Part shown: in pieces, positions 1,815 through 13,330 of the stretch
Layout of the letters: each line of letters starts with the position of its first letter
Numbering within the stretch: the first letter of the stretch is position 1
NCBI RefSeq assembly: GCF_016907845.1
Contig: NZ_JAFBCS010000001.1
Coordinates: 1,612,001 to 1,676,000, forward strand
Direction: 5' to 3'
DNA from: Arcanobacterium pluranimalium
GTDB taxonomy: Bacteria > Actinomycetota > Actinomycetes > Actinomycetales > Actinomycetaceae
DNA: 64,000 nt
Notes under the pieces: generated by a model
What the model saw: the letters and a program-made list of their open reading frames with translations, nothing else
The model's database searches: none
Told to the model about the DNA's origin: nothing
Position numbers and translations under genes: made by a program

Positions 1815-3446
1815 TTAAGATGCCTCAGTATCTGATCCAGTAAATAGCTCTCTGATTGCTTTCTTATCAATCTTCGATCCTGCAGTTAATGGAAGCGCAT
1901 CGACCACAGCAAAATAGACAGGTACCCGGTATCTGGCCACTCTCTTATTGAGAGTTTGCCGAATTGCCTCTTCGTCGAATACCGCACCTTCAGCCAATAC
2001 AACCGCTGCCGCCGGCACTTCGCCATAAATCGAATCTGGCACCCCTACTAGCGCAGCGTCAGCGATCTGCGGAAGTAGGCGTAGTTCTTCTTCAATATCG
2101 ATGCACCAGATTTTTTCGCCACCACGATTGATCAAATCTTTTTTGCGATCAAGAACGTATACGTATCCGTCTGACGTCATTCGTCCAACGTCACCAGTAG
2201 CTAACCAGCCATCGGGGGAAAAACTCTCACTGGCGATTTTGTCGTAGCGACGTGCAATATTAGCGCCGCGGATCACGATTTCACCAATCTCATCAAAACC
2301 GAGCTCTTGGCCATTTTCATTACAAATCTTGACGTCCAAACCGGGAATAGGCTTGCCCGAGCTGCCAAGATGAGGTGAGGTAGCGGCGTCGTCGGGAAAA
2401 ACGAAACCCGGTGAACACGACTCGGTCAAACCGTAGATCGTGCGAAACTCCATCTGCGGCATCCACGCGTGAAGTGCCTGGATGCGAGAAATTGGCATAT
2501 GCGCAGCTCCACAACCAATTTTTTGCACGCTAGGCAACTGCGGGAATCGCTCCTGCTCTTCGAGCATCAGCGCGAACACCGTGGGTGAAGCATGAATAAA
2601 AGTGATGTTCGATGCGAAAATCTCGCGCACGAATGGCCGTCCAGACATGCGCTTTTGCACGTGGATCGAACCGCCCAAATAGATAAACAGCGCAATGATC
2701 GCAATCATGCCGGTCACGTGATAAATCGGCACGGCAATGATCGTTGAATCATCCTCATGCAAATCAAGAACTCGCTGGTATGAACACACCGCATGGACTG
2801 CGTTCATATTTGTGAGCAGCACTCCCTTACTCTGGGATGTGGTGCCCGAGGTGTAGAGCAAAATCGCGTCGTCTTCCACAGAGAGCTGTGGCTTTTGAGT
2901 GCAAAATTCTGCGCGGGCGCGCGCAATTTCTTCATCCTCGGTTGCGGCAAGCGGAAGCCCAAAAGCGCAGGTTTGCGAGCTAGTAACCACGGTTGGAGTG
3001 TCGGTGAACCACGGAGCTTGCTCATCTTGGCACACCACAATTTTCAAATCTGCACGCTCAACCAAAGCCATAATTTCGGCGCGCCTAAACTTTCCAGGCA
3101 AAGGCACGATAATCGCTCCGAGCCTGTTCAGCGCATAGAACGTAGTAATGAAATCGATGCCGTTATCGAGCAAAACTCCCACGCGATCATGATGCCCGAT
3201 AGCCTGTTCATGGGAAAGATAGAACGCAAAATCATCGACGTACTTTTTCACCTGGGCAAACGTGAAAGTCTTTCCGTCCTCGGTGTAAATCGCCACTTTA
3301 TCGGGCAACCTTTGGGCAGTATCGCACAACGTTTCATATAGCGACGACGCCGCGTTGCAGTAGCTGCGCACTTCACGCCCATAAACGTGAAAATTAACAA
3401 GTCCCTCAACGACGGCGTCGTCCCATAACTCTTCACCAATTAGCAT
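1815..3446 (-). CDS. Class I adenylate-forming acyl-CoA ligase
   Basis: A 543-residue AMP-dependent synthetase/ligase. Visible motifs are the phosphate loop LLYTSGTTSQSKGV, the adenine-site motif IYGLTE, the ribose-binding WLATGDVGRM, the hinge region DRKKDLINRGGEKIW, and a C-terminal catalytic lysine in LTAGSKIDKKAI. Such enzymes activate a carboxylic acid with ATP to an acyl-AMP and pass it to CoA. The open frame extends 78 codons further upstream, but the ATG at 3446 overlaps the glycerate kinase stop as TAATG, so translational coupling fixes this start. It is the last gene of the LacI-headed operon. The substrate is unknown; in context it could activate a short hydroxy- or keto-acid or acetoacetate. 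Confidence 0.85.
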   Translation of the reverse strand: MLIGEELWDDAVVEGLVNFHVYGREVRSYCNAASSLYETLCDTAQRLPDKVAIYTEDGKTFTFAQVKKYVDDFAFYLSHEQAIGHHDRVGVLLDNGIDFITTFYALNRLGAIIVPLPGKFRRAEIMALVERADLKIVVCQDEQAPWFTDTPTVVTSSQTCAFGLPLAATEDEEIARARAEFCTQKPQLSVEDDAILLYTSGTTSQSKGVLLTNMNAVHAVCSYQRVLDLHEDDSTIIAVPIYHVTGMIAIIALFIYLGGSIHVQKRMSGRPFVREIFASNITFIHASPTVFALMLEEQERFPQLPSVQKIGCGAAHMPISRIQALHAWMPQMEFRTIYGLTESCSPGFVFPDDAATSPHLGSSGKPIPGLDVKICNENGQELGFDEIGEIVIRGANIARRYDKIASESFSPDGWLATGDVGRMTSDGYVYVLDRKKDLINRGGEKIWCIDIEEELRLLPQIADAALVGVPDSIYGEVPAAAVVLAEGAVFDEEAIRQTLNKRVARYRVPVYFAVVDALPLTAGSKIDKKAIRELFTGSDTEAS

Positions 3447-4597
3447 TATTTGCTCCACATATTGCATGTAACGTTGAGAATGCGGCACATCATTTTCACG
3501 GATTCGAATAGGCTCGGCTGTGCCTTTGCCAGAGCGGTTGCAAGATCGGAAACTTCGCGGACGGTTGGGACGATTGCCGCAAAACCGTCGTCGTAAAGAC
3601 TGTCGATCCCCTCGCCAAGTTTTCCTGCGAATGCTACCGTGGGCACTCCGTATTTTCTGGCTGTGCGCATAACACCCCACGGAGTTTTCCCAAATTTGGT
3701 TTGGAAATCGATGCCTCCCTCACCAGTGAGCACCAGATCAGCATCTTGAACAATATTTTCCAAACCTACGGTGTCGATGACGACGTCGACCCCCGATTTA
3801 TTTTCGGCTCCAAGGAACGCCATAAAGGCAGCACCCAAGCCACCTGCAGCGCCTGCACCAGCGCGATGAGCAACCGGTGAAGCACAGTGATCGTCCATCA
3901 AATGACCCCATACCGCGAGCGCACCGTCAAACAGGGCGATTTCCTCAGGTTTGACCCCTTTTTGCGGGCCAAATACCGCTGTTGCACCAGACTCACCAAG
4001 CAGCGGATTAGTGACGTCGCAAGCTAAGATCACTTCGACGTCTTTCCAACGAGAATCAAGATTCGAAACATCGATATGAGCGGCATCGCTCAGATTCAAA
4101 GGCTCAAATGGGCCAACTGAGTTTCCGTCGCTGGAAGTTGCACGAATACCAAGCTCATAGCACATTCCCCAGCCGCCATCGTTGGTTGCAGAGCCGCCAA
4201 GTCCAACGATGATCTTGCGCGGAGCCAAGTCAAGAATGTGATTGAGTATCATACCCACGCCAGCAGTTCCCGAGCACTTTGGATCACGCTCTTCGGGGCG
4301 GATATGTTCGATACCAATAGCTTGTGCCACTTCTAATACTGCGAGACGCTGCTGGGCAATCCATCCAAAATGAGCAGTTCGTGCCCGGCCGAGCGCATCA
4401 ACGACGGCTACTTCACGAAGCTCACCATCGAGAGCGTCTACCAGTGATTCGGTAGTGCCTTCGCCACCATCTGCCATTGGGACTTCAACGCACTGCGCGT
4501 CTGGCCACACCTCTTTAACAGCACTCGCCATCGTTTTTGCGACTGTCTTTGCCGTCATCGTCTCTTTGAAAGAATCTGGTGCAATAACTATTTTCAT
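3446..4597 (-). CDS. glxK: Glycerate kinase (GlxK/GarK family)
   Basis: This 383-residue protein has the family signatures MKIVIAPDSFKETMTA at the N-terminus, MADGGEGTTESL near residue 43, VGLGGSATNDGGWGMCYELG near residue 135 and a VLTGEGGIDFQT motif near 285. The enzyme phosphorylates D-glycerate with ATP, usually to 2-phosphoglycerate, feeding lower glycolysis. A GGAG site lies five bases before the ATG. It follows the MFS gene after 107 bp that contain a long hairpin, and its stop overlaps the next start. In this operon it is the natural outlet for a three-carbon glycerate fragment. Confidence 0.93.
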   Translation of the reverse strand: MKIVIAPDSFKETMTAKTVAKTMASAVKEVWPDAQCVEVPMADGGEGTTESLVDALDGELREVAVVDALGRARTAHFGWIAQQRLAVLEVAQAIGIEHIRPEERDPKCSGTAGVGMILNHILDLAPRKIIVGLGGSATNDGGWGMCYELGIRATSSDGNSVGPFEPLNLSDAAHIDVSNLDSRWKDVEVILACDVTNPLLGESGATAVFGPQKGVKPEEIALFDGALAVWGHLMDDHCASPVAHRAGAGAAGGLGAAFMAFLGAENKSGVDVVIDTVGLENIVQDADLVLTGEGGIDFQTKFGKTPWGVMRTARKYGVPTVAFAGKLGEGIDSLYDDGFAAIVPTVREVSDLATALAKAQPSLFESVKMMCRILNVTCNMWSK

Positions 4598-4619
4598 CTT
4601 GACTCCGCATAGATTAACG

Positions 4620-4674
4620 AACAGATCCGTCTTGTGAGGTGACCTTTGACCGTCACCTCACAAGACTATCTGTT
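4620..4674. other. Long intercistronic hairpin between MFS and glxK
   Basis: A perfect 13-base inverted repeat (4631-4643 with 4652-4664, 8-base loop) is continued outward by a second perfect 7-base pairing (4620-4626 with 4668-4674) across a small internal loop. No U-tract follows on the minus strand, so it is more likely an attenuator, an mRNA processing or stability element, or a weak terminator within the operon than a strong end of transcription. Confidence 0.6.
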
Positions 4675-4704
4675 AGTTGTACAGTGAAACACTCATCTCA
4701 CAGT

Positions 4705-6030
4705 TCACTCGTGATGTGCCTCAATCTCGCTCTTTTTGACGAAGAACTGGATGGCAACTCCAAGGAGTGCACACAGTGCCATGAAGAAGAATGTGTAGAC
4801 ATATCCTGCACCGGACTTCCAACCGCCACCGAGTCCGATGAGCCAGCCCATGAGAACTGGAGCAAGACCGCCACCAATGAACATTGCGGTAGTCACGAAG
4901 CCATTTGCCGTGCCGTGTGCGCCATCAGGTGCGTTATCGGTTGCGGCAGCGTAGTACACCGGCCACACTGCGTTGGCAACGAGACCAAAGAAGAGCTGCA
5001 GTGCAATGTAAATTGGCACCGACGTCGCGAAATAGAACGCGGCGACTCCAACTGCCATCCAAACGCCACAGACGACGATGGTAGTACGGCGTCCGAGGTA
5101 ATCAGAAAGCGTTGGCCAGAAAATCTGTCCGATGATACCCGTGATGGTGAATACCACGGAGTACGCAGCGGCTTCGGAGTAATCCAAGCCCACGATATTT
5201 GCGAGGTAGAGCGGCAGCACGTAGTTAATACCCATGTACACAATCTGCGTGAGCAAAGTCGTGCCCGAGGTGATCATAACGACCTTATTGCGCAAGCACT
5301 TTCCAACAGCGCCAGCGGTATCGGCCTGACCATCCGCACTCTCGTCGAGTGGAACGGTCATTCCGGCTGCCGCGATCTGTGCGTAAGTGCGCTCTTGACG
5401 CTCTTTCGTGGAGTACTTCCACCAGAAAAGCATGAGCGGGATTGCCACGATGAGTCCGACGACGAATACAAGCATCCAGTTTTCGTCACCGAAGATGCTC
5501 AAGATCGCTGCTACAACGAGGCCCGAGAGCAGAGCACCTACTGGGTAACCCGTGTGATGGACACCAAGTGCAAAACCGCGACGCTCCTTTGGCCACCACT
5601 CGGTGGTATTGGAAATACCAATTGGTTCTCCAGCACCAGCACCGAGGTTCACACCAATGCGCAATGCGATGAAGAGAACCAAGTTATGGGCAACAGCCTT
5701 GATACCTGTGATAGCGGAGATCAAGTTATACCCAATGACCAATGGCACCTGGAAGATTGCACGCTTCCAACCAGTTCCGTGATTATCACTCATGCGTGAG
5801 ACGTAAATCGGCAGAACTGCCAGGGAGAGCATCACTATAGAGATAATGCCACCCCAAGCTTCAGGGGAAAGATCAAAATGATCAGTAATCGCTGGGCCGA
5901 GGCGCAAAATCACCTCTCGGTCAAAAGCGTTAATCGCCCAAATTCCCCAGGTAACTGCCAAAGCTATCCAGGAAGCGCGAGGAACTTTCGACAATGGCGC
6001 AGCGCCGCGCTGAAGTTTCTCATGTGCCAT
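4705..6030 (-). CDS. MFS transporter, probable organic or sugar acid carrier
   Basis: This 441-residue protein shows about 12 hydrophobic segments in two bundles separated by a charged loop near residues 205-245. It has MFS loop signatures such as SRMSDNHGTGWKR after helix 2, WPKERRGFALGVHHTGYPVG around helix 4-5 and SDYLGRRTT after helix 8. The pattern resembles carriers for organic or sugar acids driven by protons. A GGAGAT site precedes the ATG and the gene starts two bases after the SMP-30 stop. In this operon it most likely imports the carboxylate or lactone that the enzymes degrade. Substrate assignment is inference. Confidence 0.85.
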   Translation of the reverse strand: MAHEKLQRGAAPLSKVPRASWIALAVTWGIWAINAFDREVILRLGPAITDHFDLSPEAWGGIISIVMLSLAVLPIYVSRMSDNHGTGWKRAIFQVPLVIGYNLISAITGIKAVAHNLVLFIALRIGVNLGAGAGEPIGISNTTEWWPKERRGFALGVHHTGYPVGALLSGLVVAAILSIFGDENWMLVFVVGLIVAIPLMLFWWKYSTKERQERTYAQIAAAGMTVPLDESADGQADTAGAVGKCLRNKVVMITSGTTLLTQIVYMGINYVLPLYLANIVGLDYSEAAAYSVVFTITGIIGQIFWPTLSDYLGRRTTIVVCGVWMAVGVAAFYFATSVPIYIALQLFFGLVANAVWPVYYAAATDNAPDGAHGTANGFVTTAMFIGGGLAPVLMGWLIGLGGGWKSGAGYVYTFFFMALCALLGVAIQFFVKKSEIEAHHE

Positions 6031-6032
6031 GA

Positions 6033-6917
6033 TTAGATCTCCTTACCAAAACGTGGGGTTTCATAGCCGCATACGTCCAAGTCATCAATTACATAGAGAG
6101 AACCGCGCTCACGTCCATCCTCAGGGAAACGTGGCAATGGCGGGCGAGCCATGGTTGTGACGAACATACGATCCAAATCTGGACCGCCAAAAACAGGGCA
6201 CGTCACTTTCAAAACCGGCATCTCAATTTGGCGTTCAAGCTTGCCATCTGGATCGTAACGGTTCATCTTTCCACCATAAACATGGGCCTGCCAGACGAAA
6301 CCTTCAGCATCGACGGTCATACCGTCGCAAGCACCACCATCAGACTGATCTACTGTTGCGAAAACGCGACGGTTTGAAACTTGCCCAGTTTCTAGATCGT
6401 AGTCGTATGCCCAGATATCGCCAGTCCAGGTATCGGCGAAGTAGAAGATAGAACCATCTGGGCTCCAGCACGGTCCATTGGAGCAAATAATGCCTTCGTC
6501 CAAGACGGTCAGGCCTTTGCCCTCTTCATAGGAGTAGAGTCGCCCGGAAGCATTTTCTTCCTGTGTGTCCATCGAACCAAAGACGAAGCGTCCGCGCTGA
6601 TCAACCTTGCCGTCGTTGAGGCGATTGTACTCAAACTCCGGCTCTGGATCGACCAGCAAAGTGGCCTGATCGGTTTCAAGATCGTACTTGTACAAACCAG
6701 TTTGTAGCGCCAAAAGTGCAGATTTGCCGTCGGCATAGAGTGCCATCGAGCCAATCTTCTCACGCACATCCCACACTTTGAGGTTTGAGCCATCTTGCTC
6801 ATGATTGAAAACGCGTCCGTCTTGAGAATCAATCCACCACAGTGTGTTTGATGCGCTATCCCATATTGGCCCTTCACCCAAATTAGGTTTCAGGTCAATG
6901 ATCTTACTAATTTTCAT
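6033..6917 (-). CDS. SMP-30/gluconolactonase family lactonase
   Basis: This 294-residue six-bladed beta-propeller protein has family metal-site motifs: NLGEGPIWD near residue 13, RLNDGKVDQRGRFVFGSMD near 100, NGPCWSPDG near 150 and CDGMTVDAEGFVWQA near 200. These residues normally hold one divalent metal that opens aldonolactones. The ATG at 6917 is chosen because GGAGG lies eight bases upstream; a GTG at 6932 would place the binding site inside the gene. It sits between thiolase and MFS genes. In this pathway it would open a sugar or deoxysugar lactone to the free acid. Confidence 0.88.
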   Translation of the reverse strand: MKISKIIDLKPNLGEGPIWDSASNTLWWIDSQDGRVFNHEQDGSNLKVWDVREKIGSMALYADGKSALLALQTGLYKYDLETDQATLLVDPEPEFEYNRLNDGKVDQRGRFVFGSMDTQEENASGRLYSYEEGKGLTVLDEGIICSNGPCWSPDGSIFYFADTWTGDIWAYDYDLETGQVSNRRVFATVDQSDGGACDGMTVDAEGFVWQAHVYGGKMNRYDPDGKLERQIEMPVLKVTCPVFGGPDLDRMFVTTMARPPLPRFPEDGRERGSLYVIDDLDVCGYETPRFGKEI

Positions 6918-6932
6918 TGTCAGCCTCCTCAC

Positions 6933-8108
6933 TCACAATGCCTTGTACACAGCAGCAACGCCTTGGCCGCCGCCGATGCACATGGATACCAAACCGAATT
7001 CTTTACCTGTTCGGCGCAGGTTGTATAGGGTGCGCAACGAAAGAATTGTGCCAGTAGCTCCAACTGGGTGGCCCAATGCGATTGCTCCACCAAGTGGGTT
7101 GGTCTTTTCCATATCAAGATTCTGATCGCGGATAACCGAAAGAGCTTGAGCCGCAAATGCTTCATTGAGCTCGATCCAATCGATATCTGCGAGCGTCAAT
7201 CCTGCCTTCTCCAATGCGCGTGGAATAGCAAGAGCTGGAGCGAAGCCCATCACCTCAGGCGAGACGCCAGCTTTTGCGAAGCTCACGAACTCTCCAATTG
7301 GCTTCAAGCCCTCAGCCTTTGCCACCGACTCAGTCGTGAGTACCAACATCGCCGCTGCATCGTTAATTCCTGAGGAATTACCTGCCGTCACTGAACCGCC
7401 GTCGCGGAAAGCAGGACGCAACTTTGCCAATTTCTCAACGGTGGTGCCAGGACGCAAATGCTCATCGACGTCGAAAACTCGCTCAGACTTCTTCTCCTTA
7501 ACGGTGACGCCCACGATTTCAGGAGCAAACAGTCCAGCTTCCTGAGCAGCAGCTGCACGCTCTTGGGACAGCGCGGCGAACTCGTCTTGGTCTTCGCGAG
7601 AAATTGCGTGCTTTTCTGCAACGTTCTCAGCCGTCACGCCCATCGGGTAGTTGCCGAAAGGATCAGTCACCAAAGAAAGCGTTCCATCGATGAGAGTGTG
7701 GTGACCCATCTTCCAGCCATTGCGCGCATCAAAATCCATGAATGGCTGGCGCGACATATTCTCAGAGCCGCCGGCTACCACGAACTTCGAATCGCCAGAT
7801 TGCAGTTCAAAAGCCGCCGATTGCACTGCCTGCAATCCCGATCCGCAAAGGCGGTTGACCGTAAATGCGTTCGAATCTTCACGCACGCCCGCAGCCAGCG
7901 CGATTCGGCGTGCCAAGAAAGCGTCGCCGCCAACTTGCCCAACGCAGCCGACCACGACTTCGTCGATGGCCTCGACCGAAACTCCAGCCCGCTCAACAGC
8001 AGCTTTCATCGCAGTTGCACCCATCACGTGATTTGGCGTTCCCGAAAGCGATCCGGCGTATCCACCTACAGCTGTACGAGCGCCTTCAACTACTACGATC
8101 TTTTCCAT
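6933..8108 (-). CDS. Acetyl-CoA acetyltransferase-type thiolase
   Basis: This 391-residue thiolase has the acyl-accepting cysteine Cys88 in NRLCGSGLQAV, the GHPVGATG histidine motif and the C-terminal second cysteine motif CIGGGQG, so all catalytic positions are present. Thiolases of this length are soluble homotetramers that split a 3-oxoacyl-CoA with CoA to acetyl-CoA and a shorter acyl-CoA. A strong AGAGGAG site precedes the ATG. It lies 16 bp after the CoA-transferase gene. In this operon it may act on a 3-oxo hydroxyacyl-CoA rather than plain acetoacetyl-CoA; that is inference from neighbours. Confidence 0.93.
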   Translation of the reverse strand: MEKIVVVEGARTAVGGYAGSLSGTPNHVMGATAMKAAVERAGVSVEAIDEVVVGCVGQVGGDAFLARRIALAAGVREDSNAFTVNRLCGSGLQAVQSAAFELQSGDSKFVVAGGSENMSRQPFMDFDARNGWKMGHHTLIDGTLSLVTDPFGNYPMGVTAENVAEKHAISREDQDEFAALSQERAAAAQEAGLFAPEIVGVTVKEKKSERVFDVDEHLRPGTTVEKLAKLRPAFRDGGSVTAGNSSGINDAAAMLVLTTESVAKAEGLKPIGEFVSFAKAGVSPEVMGFAPALAIPRALEKAGLTLADIDWIELNEAFAAQALSVIRDQNLDMEKTNPLGGAIALGHPVGATGTILSLRTLYNLRRTGKEFGLVSMCIGGGQGVAAVYKAL

Positions 8109-8124
8109 TGTTCTCCTCTTTCTT

Positions 8125-9585
8125 TTACTTCTTCGTAATTACTTGAGACGCCGCAGCTCGCGCAGCATCGTTGTCATCTACTTCGAGCACTTTCCATCCG
8201 TCTTCGGTGAGCTGAACGAGATAGTGTTCTGTTGCCAAATAGACTTCTTGGCCCTTGTCCAACGCAGCTTTTCCATAGAAAGTGAGCTGATCAACCTCAG
8301 GCACCCACTTGGGGTGTCTCGAATCAGCGACCATGAGGAAGCAAATTCTCTTGGCACCATCAACGATGTCCATGAACCCGCCACAGCCAATTGCTTTGCC
8401 GGCAAATGCGGAGACGTTGATATTGCCCTCGCCGTCAACTTGCCCGACACCCATGAACGTGATGTCCACGCCACCACCGTTGTAGAAGTCAAACTGTTGT
8501 GGGTGGCCAATAATGGCTGCTGGATGCAAAGCGCAACCAAAGTCGACGACGCCGAGTGGCACACCGCCGTAAGTTCCGGACTCAACAGTGAGCGTAATAT
8601 TGGCAATTTGCCCGCTCACAGCCAGGGCGCGACCAATTGAGTCGCCAGGCAAGCCGGTGCCGAGGTTGATAATGTCGCCATCACGCACAAGCTTCGCTCC
8701 ACGTTCACCGATCGCAATACGGGTTGGCTCGAGTTCGTGTGAGAGTAAAGCTTCTCCAAGTTCTTCAGGCGATGCGTAACCGGTCAGAAGATCCCAGTTC
8801 ACTTCGATCGAAGCATTCGTCTGCCGATGGTATTTGGCTGGATCGGAGGTGACCATCACGTAGTCCACCAAGACACCTGGCACTTCAACTTCGCGAGCTG
8901 GAATATCGCCGCGCTCAACAATTTCCTTGACCTGTGCAATCACGATTCCACCGTTGTTGTGTACCGCTTGGGCGATTGCCAAGTTATCAAGAATCGTCAC
9001 ATCGTCTTCTTGCGACATATTCCCGTCAGGATCGATTCGTGAGCCACGAATGATAGCTACATCTAGCGGGAAGGACTTGTAGAATAAGTACTCTTTCCCG
9101 TCAAGTTCCATAAGCGAGACGTATTCGTCCGGAGCAGTTGCAGCCTTGGCCGAGTCGTTGATACGGCCGCCGTCGTGGCGCGGATCAATGAACGTGCCCA
9201 AACCGACGGTGGATAGTTGCCCTGGTCGGTGTGCCGCAATGGTGCGGTACAACGTCGAAATCTGGCCCTGCGGCAAGCAGATTGCTTCTACTTCGTCGGC
9301 GCCAAGCACGTTGGCCATCGGTGGGTTGAGTCCCCAATGTGGGCCGATAACGCGTTTGAGCAATCCTGGATGTGCCAGGCGTGCCAGGCCGTCAATACGG
9401 TTGGATTGACCTGCAGCATGCACGAATGTGAGCTGGTTAGGCACACCTTTACTCAAAAATGATTTCTCAATTTCAAAGTAAATTTCGTCTGCCACGCCCA
9501 TCATCGTGAAGCCGTTTCCGACGACGGTCGCGCCGTTGGGGATCAAGCCCGCCACTTCGTGTGGTTCTACCTGCTTGAAGCTCAT
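8125..9585 (-). CDS. Single-chain CoA-transferase (propionate/YdiF-like, class I)
   Basis: This 486-residue protein carries fused alpha and beta halves of a family I CoA-transferase. The N-terminal half contains GNGFTMMGVADEIYF; the second half has TVESGTYGGVP, whose glutamate is the covalent catalytic residue in the family, followed by FDFYNGGGVDITFMGVGQVD. Similar proteins (YdiF, propionate CoA-transferase) exchange CoA among acetate, propionate, hydroxy- and ketoacids. It is a little shorter than the usual 510-530 residues. The start codon overlaps the dehydrogenase stop by four bases (ATGA). In this operon it probably loads the keto acid made by the dehydrogenase with CoA before thiolysis. 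Confidence 0.88.
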   Translation of the reverse strand: MSFKQVEPHEVAGLIPNGATVVGNGFTMMGVADEIYFEIEKSFLSKGVPNQLTFVHAAGQSNRIDGLARLAHPGLLKRVIGPHWGLNPPMANVLGADEVEAICLPQGQISTLYRTIAAHRPGQLSTVGLGTFIDPRHDGGRINDSAKAATAPDEYVSLMELDGKEYLFYKSFPLDVAIIRGSRIDPDGNMSQEDDVTILDNLAIAQAVHNNGGIVIAQVKEIVERGDIPAREVEVPGVLVDYVMVTSDPAKYHRQTNASIEVNWDLLTGYASPEELGEALLSHELEPTRIAIGERGAKLVRDGDIINLGTGLPGDSIGRALAVSGQIANITLTVESGTYGGVPLGVVDFGCALHPAAIIGHPQQFDFYNGGGVDITFMGVGQVDGEGNINVSAFAGKAIGCGGFMDIVDGAKRICFLMVADSRHPKWVPEVDQLTFYGKAALDKGQEVYLATEHYLVQLTEDGWKVLEVDDNDAARAAASQVITKK

Positions 9586-10343
9586 AGCTTGTAACCTCCG
9601 CCGATATTGATTACTTCACCGGTGAGGTAAGAGGCGTCGTCCGAAACGAGAAAAGCTACGAGATTTGCCACGTCTTCAGGCTGGCCAGCGCGCTTGAGTG
9701 GCACTTTCGCAACTTGCTCATCGTAGAGGTTGTCGAACCCTGCGCGAGATGGAACCTCGCGCAGCGCCGTCGTCATCGATGTCTCGATAAAGCCTGGGCA
9801 GATGGCGTTGGCGGTAATACCTTTGAATGCGAGTTCTTTCGAAATCGATCGGGTCAGCGATACGACGCCGCCCTTGGCTGCAGCGTAGTTTGTCTGTCCG
9901 ATATTGCCCATCCACGATGCTGATGCCACGTTGCAGATGCGACCATAGCCGTTTTCGCGCATATGAGTTCCAACTTTGCGGCAGAAGTAGAAGACGGCCG
10001 AGAGGTCAACAGCAATTACTGTGTCCCACATTTCGTCGGTCATTTTGTGCAGCATGCCGTCGCGGTTGATTCCGGCGTTGTTGACGAGGATGTCAATTTT
10101 GCCAAAGTCGGCAATCACCTGATCCACAGTGGCGTCGACTGCCTCACGATTAGACACGTCAAGCGCGATACCAACTGATTTACCGCCGCACAGTTCCGCC
10201 GTTGCGCGGGCAGCGTCGCCGTTAATGTCGATGACGACGACGGTGGCACCACGCTGTGCAAGTTTGAGCGCGATCCCACGCCCAATTCCTTGGGAGGCTC
10301 CTGTTACGATTGCGACTTTGTTCTCCAATGGGGTGCATGTCAT
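9582..10343 (-). CDS. Short-chain dehydrogenase/reductase (FabG-like)
   Basis: This 253-residue classical SDR has the cofactor motif TGASQGIGRGI, NNAG, a catalytic serine in NVASAS and YAAAK. An aspartate after the second strand (VVIDIN) favours NAD over NADP. The likely reaction is oxidation of a hydroxy acid to a keto acid, or the reverse. The ATG at 10343 overlaps the LacI stop as ATGA and has GGAG eight bases upstream; an earlier in-frame start would add 11 residues. Annotators may call it 3-oxoacyl-ACP reductase, but the catabolic operon argues for a 3-hydroxyacid or deoxyaldonate 3-dehydrogenase. Confidence 0.9.
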   Translation of the reverse strand: MTCTPLENKVAIVTGASQGIGRGIALKLAQRGATVVVIDINGDAARATAELCGGKSVGIALDVSNREAVDATVDQVIADFGKIDILVNNAGINRDGMLHKMTDEMWDTVIAVDLSAVFYFCRKVGTHMRENGYGRICNVASASWMGNIGQTNYAAAKGGVVSLTRSISKELAFKGITANAICPGFIETSMTTALREVPSRAGFDNLYDEQVAKVPLKRAGQPEDVANLVAFLVSDDASYLTGEVINIGGGYKL

Positions 10344-11398
10344 GAGACGTGCTCCTTTCCTAGTTGGCACCGGCACGAATTACCAATGCGTAGTGAGTAT
10401 TGACAAATCACTTCATGAGGAGTGATTGACTTATTTCTGATGAGGTCATCGAGGTAGATAACTGCGTTTTCTGCCATGTCATCAACAGGTTGTACAACGG
10501 TTGTGAGTGAGAAATCGGGCGACCGATGACTTATCACACCGTCGAAACCACAGATAGCTATATCTGCTGGAATATTGATGCCTTGCGCTGTGAAATCTTG
10601 CATAATGCCAAGGGCGATGGCATCTGAACCGCAGATAATCGCTTCTGGAAGTCCACGATCTAAACTGCGTAGATATTGAGCTGCTTTCATACCGCCATCG
10701 ACGCCGAGGGATGTGCGAACAATCCACTGTTGCGGAACGAAAATTCCGCTTTCTACAAGGCCGTCCAAATATCCGGCATAGCGATCATTGGAAGCAGAAG
10801 AGCGCCGTGGCCCTACAACGAGTGCGATTTTTTCGAAGCCATGGGAGGCCATGTGCAAAGCAATATCTTTCGAGGCAGCTTTGTTATCTATGCCCACAAA
10901 AGCGCCATTCACAGTTGGGATTTTTCGCGAAACCTGAACATATGGGATATTCCATTTGCGCAATTCTTGGACGACGGCGGCGTCACCGTCCTGAGTTGCG
11001 GTGAGAATGATCCCGTCCACGCGATGACTTGCCATGGCTCGAACTGTTGTGAGCAGTTCAAGTGGATCGTCACCAGTATGAGAGAGGTAGGCGTCGTATC
11101 CGTGCCAGCGTGCGTGATTTGAAACCGCGACTCCCAGCTCTTGATAGAACGGATTGCTCAGGTCAGCCAAGATAAGCCCAACGAGTGGTTTTGTAGTTTT
11201 CCAGTTCAGGGCTTTTTGTGGGATTTCCATTCCCTTCTTTTCAGCCAATGAGAGGATCATTTGACGGGTGCGCGCTGAAACACCAGGTTTACCATTAAGC
11301 GCATACGACACCGCTGCTCGAGATACACCGAGTATCCGAGCAATATCTGCTGCACTTCCTTCTTGTGAAGGTTTAATAATCCGATTTTCGCGATCCAA
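10340..11398 (-). CDS. LacI-family transcriptional regulator
   Basis: This 352-residue repressor has an N-terminal helix-turn-helix plus hinge helix (AADIARILGVSRAAVSYALN, residues 16-35), then a periplasmic-binding-protein-like sensor domain (LVGLILADLSNPFY from about residue 71; DGIILTATQ; ICGFDGVISHRSPDFSLTTV). Translation begins at TTG 11398, with AAGGGAG nine bases upstream. It is the first gene of the operon and overlaps the SDR gene by four bases, so it most likely autoregulates the whole cluster in response to the substrate or an intermediate. Confidence 0.93.
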   Translation of the reverse strand: MDRENRIIKPSQEGSAADIARILGVSRAAVSYALNGKPGVSARTRQMILSLAEKKGMEIPQKALNWKTTKPLVGLILADLSNPFYQELGVAVSNHARWHGYDAYLSHTGDDPLELLTTVRAMASHRVDGIILTATQDGDAAVVQELRKWNIPYVQVSRKIPTVNGAFVGIDNKAASKDIALHMASHGFEKIALVVGPRRSSASNDRYAGYLDGLVESGIFVPQQWIVRTSLGVDGGMKAAQYLRSLDRGLPEAIICGSDAIALGIMQDFTAQGINIPADIAICGFDGVISHRSPDFSLTTVVQPVDDMAENAVIYLDDLIRNKSITPHEVICQYSLRIGNSCRCQLGKEHVS

Positions 11399-11530
11399 AA
11401 CGATTCACTCCCTTGTGTACCGATAGCGTTCGCATTTGCATGCGTCCACATCGACTTGTGACTAGACTCTCAACCCAGTTGTGAGTTAAGCAACGTTAAG
11501 TTATCAACTATCGCTGACCAACTTTAGCGA
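11399..11530 (-). promoter_or_regulatory. Upstream region of the LacI-headed operon with candidate operators
   Basis: Two candidate LacI-type sites are visible: an inverted repeat CGCAT-N4-ATGCG at 11431-11444, 33-46 bases upstream of the TTG start, and an AACGTT-centred element near 11493-11498 flanked by GTTAAG direct repeats. No convincing -10/-35 pair was found. The remainder of the 309-bp gap up to nif3 holds a terminator at 11577-11622 and otherwise nothing recognisable. Confidence 0.35.
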
Positions 11531-11576: not shown

Positions 11577-11622
11577 AAATAATCCCGTCTGTTAAGTTTT
11601 CACTTAACAGACGGGATTATTT
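11577..11622. terminator. Strong hairpin terminator downstream of nif3
   Basis: A perfect 20-base inverted repeat (11577-11596 with 11603-11622) encloses a six-base loop. On the minus strand the stem ends in ATTATTTTG, a short U-rich tail. It lies 86 bases after the nif3 stop and separates nif3 transcription from the catabolic operon. Confidence 0.85.
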
Positions 11623-12557: not shown

Positions 12558-12968
12558 GTGGTTCTATCAATAATTTCGGTATTCTGCGGCGGATTTTTAG
12601 GCGTAAGTGCGCGCTATATCCTCGCTAGCACATTCCCGACCAACGCCTCGTTACCCCTGGGTATTCTGACGATCAATATGTTGGGATGTTTCCTGCTCGG
12701 TTATATCTCACAGAAAATCGCGCATAGTTCTTTGAAGAACCACATAAAAAAGCACATCAGGCTCCTTGCCTGTACCGGATTTCTCGGCGGTTTTACCACA
12801 TACAGCGCTATCGTCGTTGATTCAAATCTGCTTCTAGCAAAGGGGCAAACCACATTGGCACTTATCTATCCCATATTCTCGATTGTGCTCGGCGTGGCAT
12901 CCGTTGCCCTTGGCGCCCGTTTGGTTTTGCCGCGCGCTCCCCAAGCAGACAAAGAGGCGCAGGCATGA
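12558..12968 (+). CDS. crcB: Fluoride channel FluC/CrcB, first subunit
   Basis: This 136-residue protein has four hydrophobic segments and CrcB hallmarks: GGFLGVSARY in helix 1, LTINMLGCFLLG in helix 2 (pore asparagine) and TGFLGGFTTYSA in helix 3 (phenylalanine box and sodium-site threonines). Fluc channels expel fluoride as dual-topology dimers; two adjacent genes usually mean an antiparallel heterodimer. The GTG start has a leaderless TAGAAT box. Its end overlaps the second subunit by four bases (ATGA). Confidence 0.93.
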   Translation: MVLSIISVFCGGFLGVSARYILASTFPTNASLPLGILTINMLGCFLLGYISQKIAHSSLKNHIKKHIRLLACTGFLGGFTTYSAIVVDSNLLLAKGQTTLALIYPIFSIVLGVASVALGARLVLPRAPQADKEAQA

Positions 12969-13330
12969 CCACTCTATTGATCGCCTGCGCCGGCGGATTT
13001 GGGGTAGTTATGCGTTTCTTAATCGATTCCGTGATGTCCAAGGATAAGTTTCCCACTGGCACATTTACCATTAACCTCATTGGATCTGCCATTTTAGGAT
13101 TTTTCACCGGAATGTACCTCGGATCTGGTATTTCACAATCCACGCTCGCGATCCTGGGCACCGGATTCGCAGGCGGCTTCACAACGTTCAGTACGGCGTC
13201 GTTAGAAACCTACACCATGCTAAAAGATAACCAGGCAAAGAAAGCACACCTTTACGCTTGGAGTATGCTAATCCTTTGCCTGATTACCGCTTATATTTCG
13301 ATCTTATTAGGTTTTACCCTCACGAAATGA
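12965..13330 (+). CDS. crcB: Fluoride channel FluC/CrcB, second subunit
   Basis: This 121-residue protein has four hydrophobic segments with CAGGFGVVMRFLID, FTINLIGSAILGFFTG and TGFAGGFTTFSTASLE, the same pore elements as its upstream partner. The ATG overlaps the first subunit's stop (ATGA), so both are made together and probably assemble as an opposed-orientation heterodimer in the membrane. The gene ends 18 bp before the convergent amino-acid carrier gene. Confidence 0.93.
   Translation: MTTLLIACAGGFGVVMRFLIDSVMSKDKFPTGTFTINLIGSAILGFFTGMYLGSGISQSTLAILGTGFAGGFTTFSTASLETYTMLKDNQAKKAHLYAWSMLILCLITAYISILLGFTLTK

Follow-up and report, generated by a model that had tools for sequence, protein, structure and literature searches.

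A LacI-regulated operon of Arcanobacterium pluranimalium with a predicted role in 2-deoxy-D-ribonate breakdown via a Klebsiella-type acyl-CoA route

A predicted deoxyribonate operon

The stretch of DNA analyzed here (64,000 nucleotides, hereafter the window) covers positions 1,612,001-1,676,000 of the 2.10 Mb single-contig genome of Arcanobacterium pluranimalium. It contains eight genes, all on the minus strand (1815-11398), that quite likely constitute a LacI-regulated operon for importing and degrading 2-deoxy-D-ribonate or the corresponding lactone via an acyl-CoA route of the Klebsiella type. 2-Deoxyribonate is the sugar of DNA in oxidized form. The encoded set of enzymes is the one published for Klebsiella and the biochemistry is already known; what is added here concerns the spread of the pathway, its regulation and its variants. 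A pathway for which the genetic evidence comes from a single Klebsiella strain is thereby extended, by sequence, to the Actinomycetota; no report of it in Actinobacteria surfaced in the literature searched, with subscription journals and preprints outside the scope of that search.

The first gene of the operon encodes a LacI-family regulator (10340-11398, TTG start as called; PF00356/PF13377). It is followed by genes for a short-chain dehydrogenase/reductase (SDR; 9582-10343, start at 10343; PF13561), probably an NAD-dependent 2-deoxyribonyl-CoA 3-dehydrogenase, a single-chain (fused) family I CoA-transferase (8125-9585; PF01144), probably a glyceryl-CoA:deoxyribonate CoA-transferase, and a thiolase (6933-8108; PF00108 and PF02803). 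The remainder comprises an SMP-30 lactonase (6033-6932, first ATG at 6917; PF08450), probably a deoxyribonolactonase, a carrier of the major facilitator superfamily (MFS; 4705-6030; PF07690), a glycerate kinase (3446-4597; PF02595) and an AMP-forming acyl-CoA ligase (1815-3446; PF00501), probably a 2-deoxyribonate-CoA ligase. An eight-gene operon of these families, in this order and on one strand, had been outlined in a preliminary description made from the sequence alone, and it is borne out by the coordinates, by Pfam matches above the cut-off for all eight proteins and by tight or overlapping junctions. The lacI stop and the SDR start overlap in ATGA and the kinase stop and the ligase start in TAATG, as read directly from the sequence. 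According to the coordinates, the SDR and CoA-transferase genes overlap by 4 bases, and gaps of 16 and 107 bases lie between the CoA-transferase and thiolase genes and between the MFS and kinase genes, respectively. The open reading frame of the ligase was listed from 3680; homologous frames in two related loci (L033 and L034) start at the position equivalent to 3446.

In NCBIfam seven of the eight proteins were matched at E 0.001 or better, the SMP-30 protein being the exception, and only the glycerate kinase, the thiolase and the SDR passed the curated cut-off, under names that are general. The thiolase carries NRLCGSG, GHPVGATG and CIGGG, which we take to be the Cys and His motifs of the family, the ligase an AMP-binding signature and the CoA-transferase the sequence ESG. 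Within the SDR an acidic residue follows the second strand, presumably reflecting a preference for NAD, and YAAAK is present in the translation; a search of this protein with a Ser-Tyr-Lys pattern gave no match, owing to the spacing of the pattern. The CoA-transferase is the sole match in its own genome at E 0.001, and the thiolase and glycerate kinase are the only genomic matches to PF00108 and PF02595. With no second thiolase in the genome, the assignment can be tested cleanly.

From the observed gene content, homology, clades, sequence motif and co-occurrence we infer the following substrate, reactions and recycling of CoA. The acid or lactone would be imported by MFS carriers, one encoded in the operon and one elsewhere behind the same regulatory footprint, and the SMP-30 protein would open the lactone. 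The ligase would make 2-deoxyribonyl-CoA, probably joined in this by the CoA-transferase once one turn has been completed. The SDR would then oxidize C3 with NAD to give 3-keto-2-deoxyribonyl-CoA, which the thiolase would cleave with CoA into acetyl-CoA and glyceryl-CoA. Finally, the CoA-transferase would release glycerate by moving CoA from glyceryl-CoA to the next deoxyribonate, and the glycerate kinase would produce 2-phosphoglycerate. Given the combination of a glycerate kinase with a thiolase that removes acetyl-CoA (a two-carbon cut), the substrate would be a five-carbon 2-deoxy acid.

Relation to known deoxyribonate pathways

In the passages on Klebsiella michiganensis in Price et al. 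(2019, PMC6365646), the use of deoxyribonate is attributed to a CoA-synthetase, a CoA-transferase, a beta-hydroxyacyl-CoA dehydrogenase, a thiolase, a lactonase, two MFS carriers and a glycerate kinase, encoded in strain M5al by BWI76_RS23695-23730. According to the same passages, the support consists of mutant fitness data and not of purified enzymes, the CoA ester is the proposed substrate of the dehydrogenase, and M5al encodes neither the beta-keto acid cleavage enzyme (BKACE) nor a deoxyribonate dehydrogenase, an enzyme that was purified from Pseudomonas (PMC6365646). The preliminary description had read the operon as a CoA-transferase/thiolase route for a deoxyaldonate and had regarded the combination as one not yet described. 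The outline of this interpretation agrees with the sequence comparisons; the claim to novelty has to be dropped in view of the Klebsiella pathway, and the proposed order of steps is probably incorrect (see below).

As to the CoA-transferase, the published passages go no further than that it may convert glyceryl-CoA to glycerate (PMC6365646), and in the GapMind paper the step of deoxyribonate oxidation that calls for a glyceryl-CoA hydrolase is marked as unknown (PMC9007349). The CoA-transferase constitutes a concrete candidate for this release of glycerate. The earlier suggestion that glyceryl-CoA acts as CoA donor for the next round remains plausible; the ligase had been listed then without a role. 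Such a transfer to deoxyribonate would plausibly spare the ATP of the ligase at each turn.

The operon and the M5al cluster share their enzyme set and the absence of BKACE, and the SDR of the operon lies outside the deoxyribonate-dehydrogenase clade. In the whole window genome BKACE (PF05853) gave no match; 13 of the 14 control genomes lack it as well, so such an absence is common. The two differ in gene order and in the thiolase, which in the window belongs to another subclade. Moreover, the window operon is headed by lacI, whereas the cluster of K. pneumoniae ends in a gene annotated as a sugar diacid recognition domain protein, and the other (MFS1-type) carrier of A. pluranimalium is encoded elsewhere behind the shared footprint.

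The published gene order is also found in the K. pneumoniae records CP125156.1 and NZ_CP091979.1, and the former served as the Klebsiella reference. BLASTP identities to it are 57% for the MFS carrier (an orthologue of the second Klebsiella carrier, by position the published BWI76_RS23725), 55% for the SMP-30 protein, 50% for the SDR, 49% for the thiolase, 39% for the CoA-transferase, 37% for the glycerate kinase and 34% for the ligase. The low values of the last two are not alarming, considering that for these two genes the window shares no more than 36-45% identity with the loci of Corynebacterium (L043, L044) or Propioniferax (L045), in which the core is the same. Within a collection of 72,556 plasmid records, the Klebsiella cluster accounted for the best three of 262 records for the MFS carrier (next 47%, then 38%), the best three of at least 5000 for the SDR and the best three of 3054 for the ligase (286 bits versus 251 for the best other match among the best 15 listed). 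The best six of 805 records for SMP-30 were from Rhizobium, Phyllobacterium and Agrobacterium plus three from Klebsiella; five of the six were inspected and all five were deoxyribonate-type clusters, those of Rhizobium, Phyllobacterium and Agrobacterium with BKACE. Identities to the lactonases of these four genera range from 55 to 59%, and a second Phyllobacterium copy shows 45%. Weaker matches (~49%) occurred in Acinetobacter, with lactonase and carriers nearby and none of the enzymes, and in P. oryzihabitans, within a different gene set. The next-best SDR matches were mostly from Burkholderiaceae, and the three inspected (of nine among the best 25) all lay within BKACE clusters. Two SDR matches of 46% were rejected as cluster members: the one of Azospirillum has none of the other genes around it and the one of Novosphingobium a different gene set.

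Two remarks on the records themselves can be added. In NZ_CP091979.1 (128638-147510), a K. pneumoniae plasmid of 280 kb, an IS3-type element (ISKpn1) is located between the thiolase and the first MFS gene of the cluster. The K. pneumoniae record CP125156.1 (5.37 Mb) and the A. baumannii record NZ_CP064203.1 (3.97 Mb) are filed as plasmids and, judged by their size, are probably chromosomes.

The same chemistry could in principle serve a different epimer of 2-deoxypentonate or a related 3,4,5-trihydroxy acid, considering that sequence does not reveal the stereochemistry at C3 and that the ligase and glycerate kinase are distant from those of Klebsiella. We consider this unlikely, as the lactonase and the MFS carrier, which meet the free substrate, are the proteins closest to their Klebsiella counterparts, the lactonase being equally near those of the Rhizobiales BKACE-type clusters, and as the kinase indicates glycerate as the second product and hence five carbons.

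Two other known systems invite comparison. The BKACE-type clusters (Pseudomonas simiae and Paraburkholderia; plasmids of Rhizobium, Phyllobacterium, Agrobacterium and Caballeronia) have lactonases 56-59% identical to that of the window and the same proposed products, and the window SDR shares 48% identity with the fabG-like SDR encoded in the Caballeronia cluster. There, however, BKACE cleaves the keto acid, whereas the window genome lacks BKACE and the operon lacks an SDR of the deoxyribonate-dehydrogenase clade. The pathway via deoxyribose kinase and deoxyribose-5-phosphate aldolase concerns the same sugar family, and the window genome has two DeoC-family matches; that pathway is nevertheless phosphorylated and non-oxidative, and the operon (1.61-1.62 Mb) contains no DeoC, the two matches being located at 0.99 and 1.08 Mb.

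Phylogeny of the enzymes and the order of the reactions

In a careful tree of 74 SDR sequences, in which several long branches were flagged by the program, the SDR of the window groups with the other actinobacterial and the Chloroflexi core SDRs and with the Klebsiella SDR in one clade (34 rows, support 100/96). A second clade (9 rows, 99/95) unites the BKACE-adjacent SDRs of Rhizobium, Agrobacterium, Phyllobacterium, Caballeronia and Paraburkholderia with second SDRs from three actinobacterial loci (L046, L047 and L049). Since the Caballeronia and Paraburkholderia clusters correspond by gene order to the published cluster of P. bryophila, this second clade should hold the deoxyribonate dehydrogenase. 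The window SDR falls outside it, with 31-32% identity to the Rhizobiales members and 33% to that of Caballeronia. The other SDR of the Burkholderiaceae clusters, which is fabG-like, in turn falls outside the 34-row clade; in the passage on these clusters, Price et al. suspected it of acting on deoxyribonyl-CoA (PMC6365646).

Given that the window SDR belongs to the acyl-CoA clade of Klebsiella and not to that of the BKACE clusters, and that the best matches of the operon ligase are those of the Klebsiella cluster, it is more likely that the SDR acts on the CoA ester than on the free acid, and CoA is probably loaded before oxidation. The order proposed in the preliminary description, in which the free acid is oxidized first and then loaded, is accordingly disfavored. 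In that order the SDR would oxidize 2-deoxyribonate, the CoA-transferase would load the 3-keto acid and the thiolase would cleave it, with the ligase priming the cycle or being accessory. For CoA-transferases of this family 3-oxo acids are common substrates, and four relatives' loci (L046-L049, see below) show no ligase in the DNA examined, three of which have a second SDR of the BKACE-cluster clade as compared to none of 12 ligase-bearing loci. In A. pluranimalium, by contrast, the operon has a single SDR, of the Klebsiella acyl-CoA type, the genome contains no other SDR matching above 34%, and the ligase tracks that of Klebsiella, which makes oxidation of the free acid improbable here.

A quick tree of the CoA-transferases unites the Klebsiella, actinobacterial and Chloroflexi sequences (31 of 68 rows, SH-aLRT 99), with the 37 other rows apart. 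In a quick tree of the thiolases, that of Klebsiella clusters with those of the actinobacterial locus L040 and of one sampled genome (98), and the other actinobacterial thiolases make up an 18-row clade (99).

Conservation and variants of the operon

With the CoA-transferase 41 loci were found in named genomes, 18 of which make up an actinobacterial group (L032-L049). Counts over this group refer to the DNA examined per locus, and that of the CoA-transferase is true by construction. The SDR and the thiolase are present in all 18 loci and LacI in 17, and the order LacI-SDR-CoA-transferase-thiolase is kept in 16, more than expected by chance; the exceptions are L040, whose thiolase gene runs in the opposite direction, and L042, which gave no match to LacI. 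A glycerate kinase was found in 15 loci (contig ends truncate L039 and L042, and L046 shows none), although in L047-L049 the matches amount to only 31-37%. The ligase occurs in 12 (two loci are cut and L046-L049 lack it), the lactonase in eight; 13 loci have a carrier of one or the other Klebsiella type. Basically, the SDR and thiolase (all loci) and the kinase (most) are the constant parts, and the carriers, lactonase, ligase and type of thiolase are swapped.

The counts include the lactonase and second-type MFS carrier of Propioniferax innocua, even though they are in pieces. In this locus (L045:16964-18906) the lactonase match is split in two and the MFS2 match in three overlapping pieces, so that the genes are possibly broken or affected by assembly errors.

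Ordinary metabolism of short-chain 3-hydroxy acids, acetoacetate or polyhydroxybutyrate, with the nearby lactonase and kinase unrelated, is suggested by the best NCBIfam names (FabG, BktB and FadX), and in one sampled proteobacterial genome (L106) a CoA-transferase-SDR-thiolase trio indeed occurs with no lactonase, carrier or kinase adjacent. Considering that the three L106 proteins fall outside the clades of the window, and that kinase, lactonase and Klebsiella-type carrier recur in 15, eight and 13 of the 18 loci, such a role appears highly unlikely.

The predicted deoxyribonate operon is patchily distributed. The CoA-transferase was found in three of nine genus-mates and, at 61% or more, in one of the 39 genomes sampled from the rest of the family. 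In the window the operon is flanked by what we take to be a Nif3-like gene on one side and a gene labelled ZnR on the other; these two genes directly adjoin in six other Arcanobacterium genomes (L164-L169), one of which (G006) carries the operon elsewhere, and in one genome (G001) no Nif3 match was found. The CoA-transferase of the Arcanobacterium bovis record (L032) is 97% identical to that of the window, and the gene is also present in named Varibaculum and Actinomyces records of a second collection. Arcanobacterium and Varibaculum are animal- and human-associated genera. Human urine contains deoxyribonate, according to the passage on its occurrence in PMC6365646, and would be a plausible supply for such bacteria. 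One record (L037, FQLW01000005.1) is named Tissierella sp. (Bacillota); in the trees its operon proteins lie very near those of Varibaculum, and the record is probably misnamed.

Among the variants, L040 has a thiolase nearest to that of Klebsiella (55%), encoded divergently with an MFS1-type gene. In L047 and L049 a divergent set encodes an ABC transporter, an SMP-30 protein (68-70% identical to that of Rhizobium), an SDR and a hydroxyacyl-CoA dehydrogenase (27-30%), as in the Rhizobium BKACE cluster without the BKACE. These ligase-less loci tentatively suggest a third, hybrid route, in which SDR, CoA-transferase and thiolase replace BKACE and the turnover of CoA depends on the CoA-transferase alone. 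In Leucobacter celer (L047), a member of the Microbacteriaceae (L049) and perhaps Nocardia (L046, which contributes only the dehydrogenase-type SDR), a Rhizobium-type module of transporter, lactonase and deoxyribonate dehydrogenase would then have been joined to the core. CoA would be passed from glyceryl-CoA to the incoming acid, and the ligase of the window would merely prime the cycle. If true, this would name an enzyme for the glyceryl-CoA hydrolase step that the GapMind authors list as unknown in the section cited (PMC9007349).

Another sampled genome (L157) has kinase, SDR, CoA-transferase and ligase genes on one strand and the thiolase gene on the other, with 47-73% identity to Klebsiella. 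By eye, genes resembling those of a TRAP-type transporter lie between these genes and the thiolase gene.

Outside the Actinobacteria, CoA-transferase matches passed E 1e-90 in 16 of 398 sampled proteobacterial genomes. When the best locus of each was inspected, L106 alone had an adjacent SDR and thiolase at a comparable level of identity, those of L102 and L105 being weak, and these loci were rejected as members; in L106 itself no kinase, ligase or lactonase lies near the trio. Thiolase matches in the family of the L106 genome passed E 1e-100 in 19 of 296 cases, 12 of them with an SDR nearby; of these 12, L157 is the one whose wider neighborhood was inspected. Thirteen loci from soil Chloroflexi metagenome-assembled genomes (L050-L062) have an SDR and CoA-transferase that fall in the clades of the window. 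They were not accepted as members: they show the SDR-CoA-transferase pair (in a broken arrangement in L060), and thiolase, kinase and ligase were not detected in the DNA examined, which is often short downstream. Ten loci from Peptoniphilaceae, Methylobacterium and others (L063-L072), with CoA-transferases of 31-39% identity and a weak ligase match (24-28%) in four, were set aside as paralogues.

A putative operator and a second carrier gene

By aligning seven upstream regions a footprint, CTTAACRTTGCTTAAC, was exposed around 100 bases upstream of lacI. The conserved 16 bases in the window, CTTAACGTTGCTTAAC (11485-11500, minus strand; 0.06 occurrences expected per window at two mismatches), are probably a LacI operator or a promoter element, and the pathway gains in this way a regulator with a readable putative operator. 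In the twelve loci outside the discovery set (L038-L049) the footprint was found with at most one mismatch in six and at most two in eight, and none was found in 20 first-order Markov resamplings of this test. It was not found in L042-L045, and second copies face the divergent operons of L040 (two mismatches) and L049 (one mismatch).

The only other site in the genome with at most one mismatch (0.09 expected by composition) is situated around 170 bases upstream of a lone MFS gene (G000:C1:1251045-1252394; L159:3042-4394, minus strand). Its product is an orthologue of the other carrier type of Klebsiella, being 82% identical to the carrier in the L034 operon, which in turn is 52% identical to the first Klebsiella carrier. 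The footprint is kept before this gene in all three genomes, close relatives, where it lies outside the operon (G000, G008 and G009). Furthermore, an MFS1-type carrier of 81% or more was found in all four operon-bearing and in none of the six operon-free Arcanobacterium genomes, where the best match reached 40% (Fisher 0.005 for these ten genomes, uncorrected for relatedness).

Several observations weigh against a deoxyribonate pathway of the Klebsiella type. With as many as two mismatches allowed, the genome holds four footprint sites versus six for a reversed-pattern control, so genomic two-mismatch sites mean nothing. Several operons of relatives lack the lactonase and the MFS carrier, and the K. 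pneumoniae reference was equated with the published cluster by gene order (locus-tag numbers). For the thiolase, CoA-transferase and glycerate kinase there are matches on plasmids that exceed the identity to the Klebsiella proteins, with Rhodococcus plasmid thiolases reaching 57% as compared to 49% for the Klebsiella one, and in the quick tree the actinobacterial thiolases group with those of Rhodococcus and Streptomyces (93, unstarred), apart from that of Klebsiella. The window thiolase is therefore not clearly an orthologue of the Klebsiella one and, given this placement, it was probably recruited separately. The one Rhodococcus thiolase neighborhood that was inspected was rejected as a deoxyribonate cluster, its annotated neighbors being acyl-CoA dehydrogenases and other thiolases; the neighborhood of the Streptomyces thiolase carried no annotation.

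Neighboring elements

Between the Nif3-like gene and lacI an inverted repeat is present, CCCGTCTGTTAAGT-GAAA-ACTTAACAGACGGG (11584-11615, minus strand), which could be a terminator of the upstream gene and/or a second operator. In the alignment of upstream regions its arms vary together, by eye, in three Arcanobacterium genomes, with the inner GTTAAG/CTTAAC constant, and similar GTTAAG...CTTAA(C) pairs can be discerned by eye upstream of the lone MFS gene. Further along the window (12558-13330), two adjacent genes encode short membrane proteins that by eye have the appearance of a CrcB-type fluoride channel pair.

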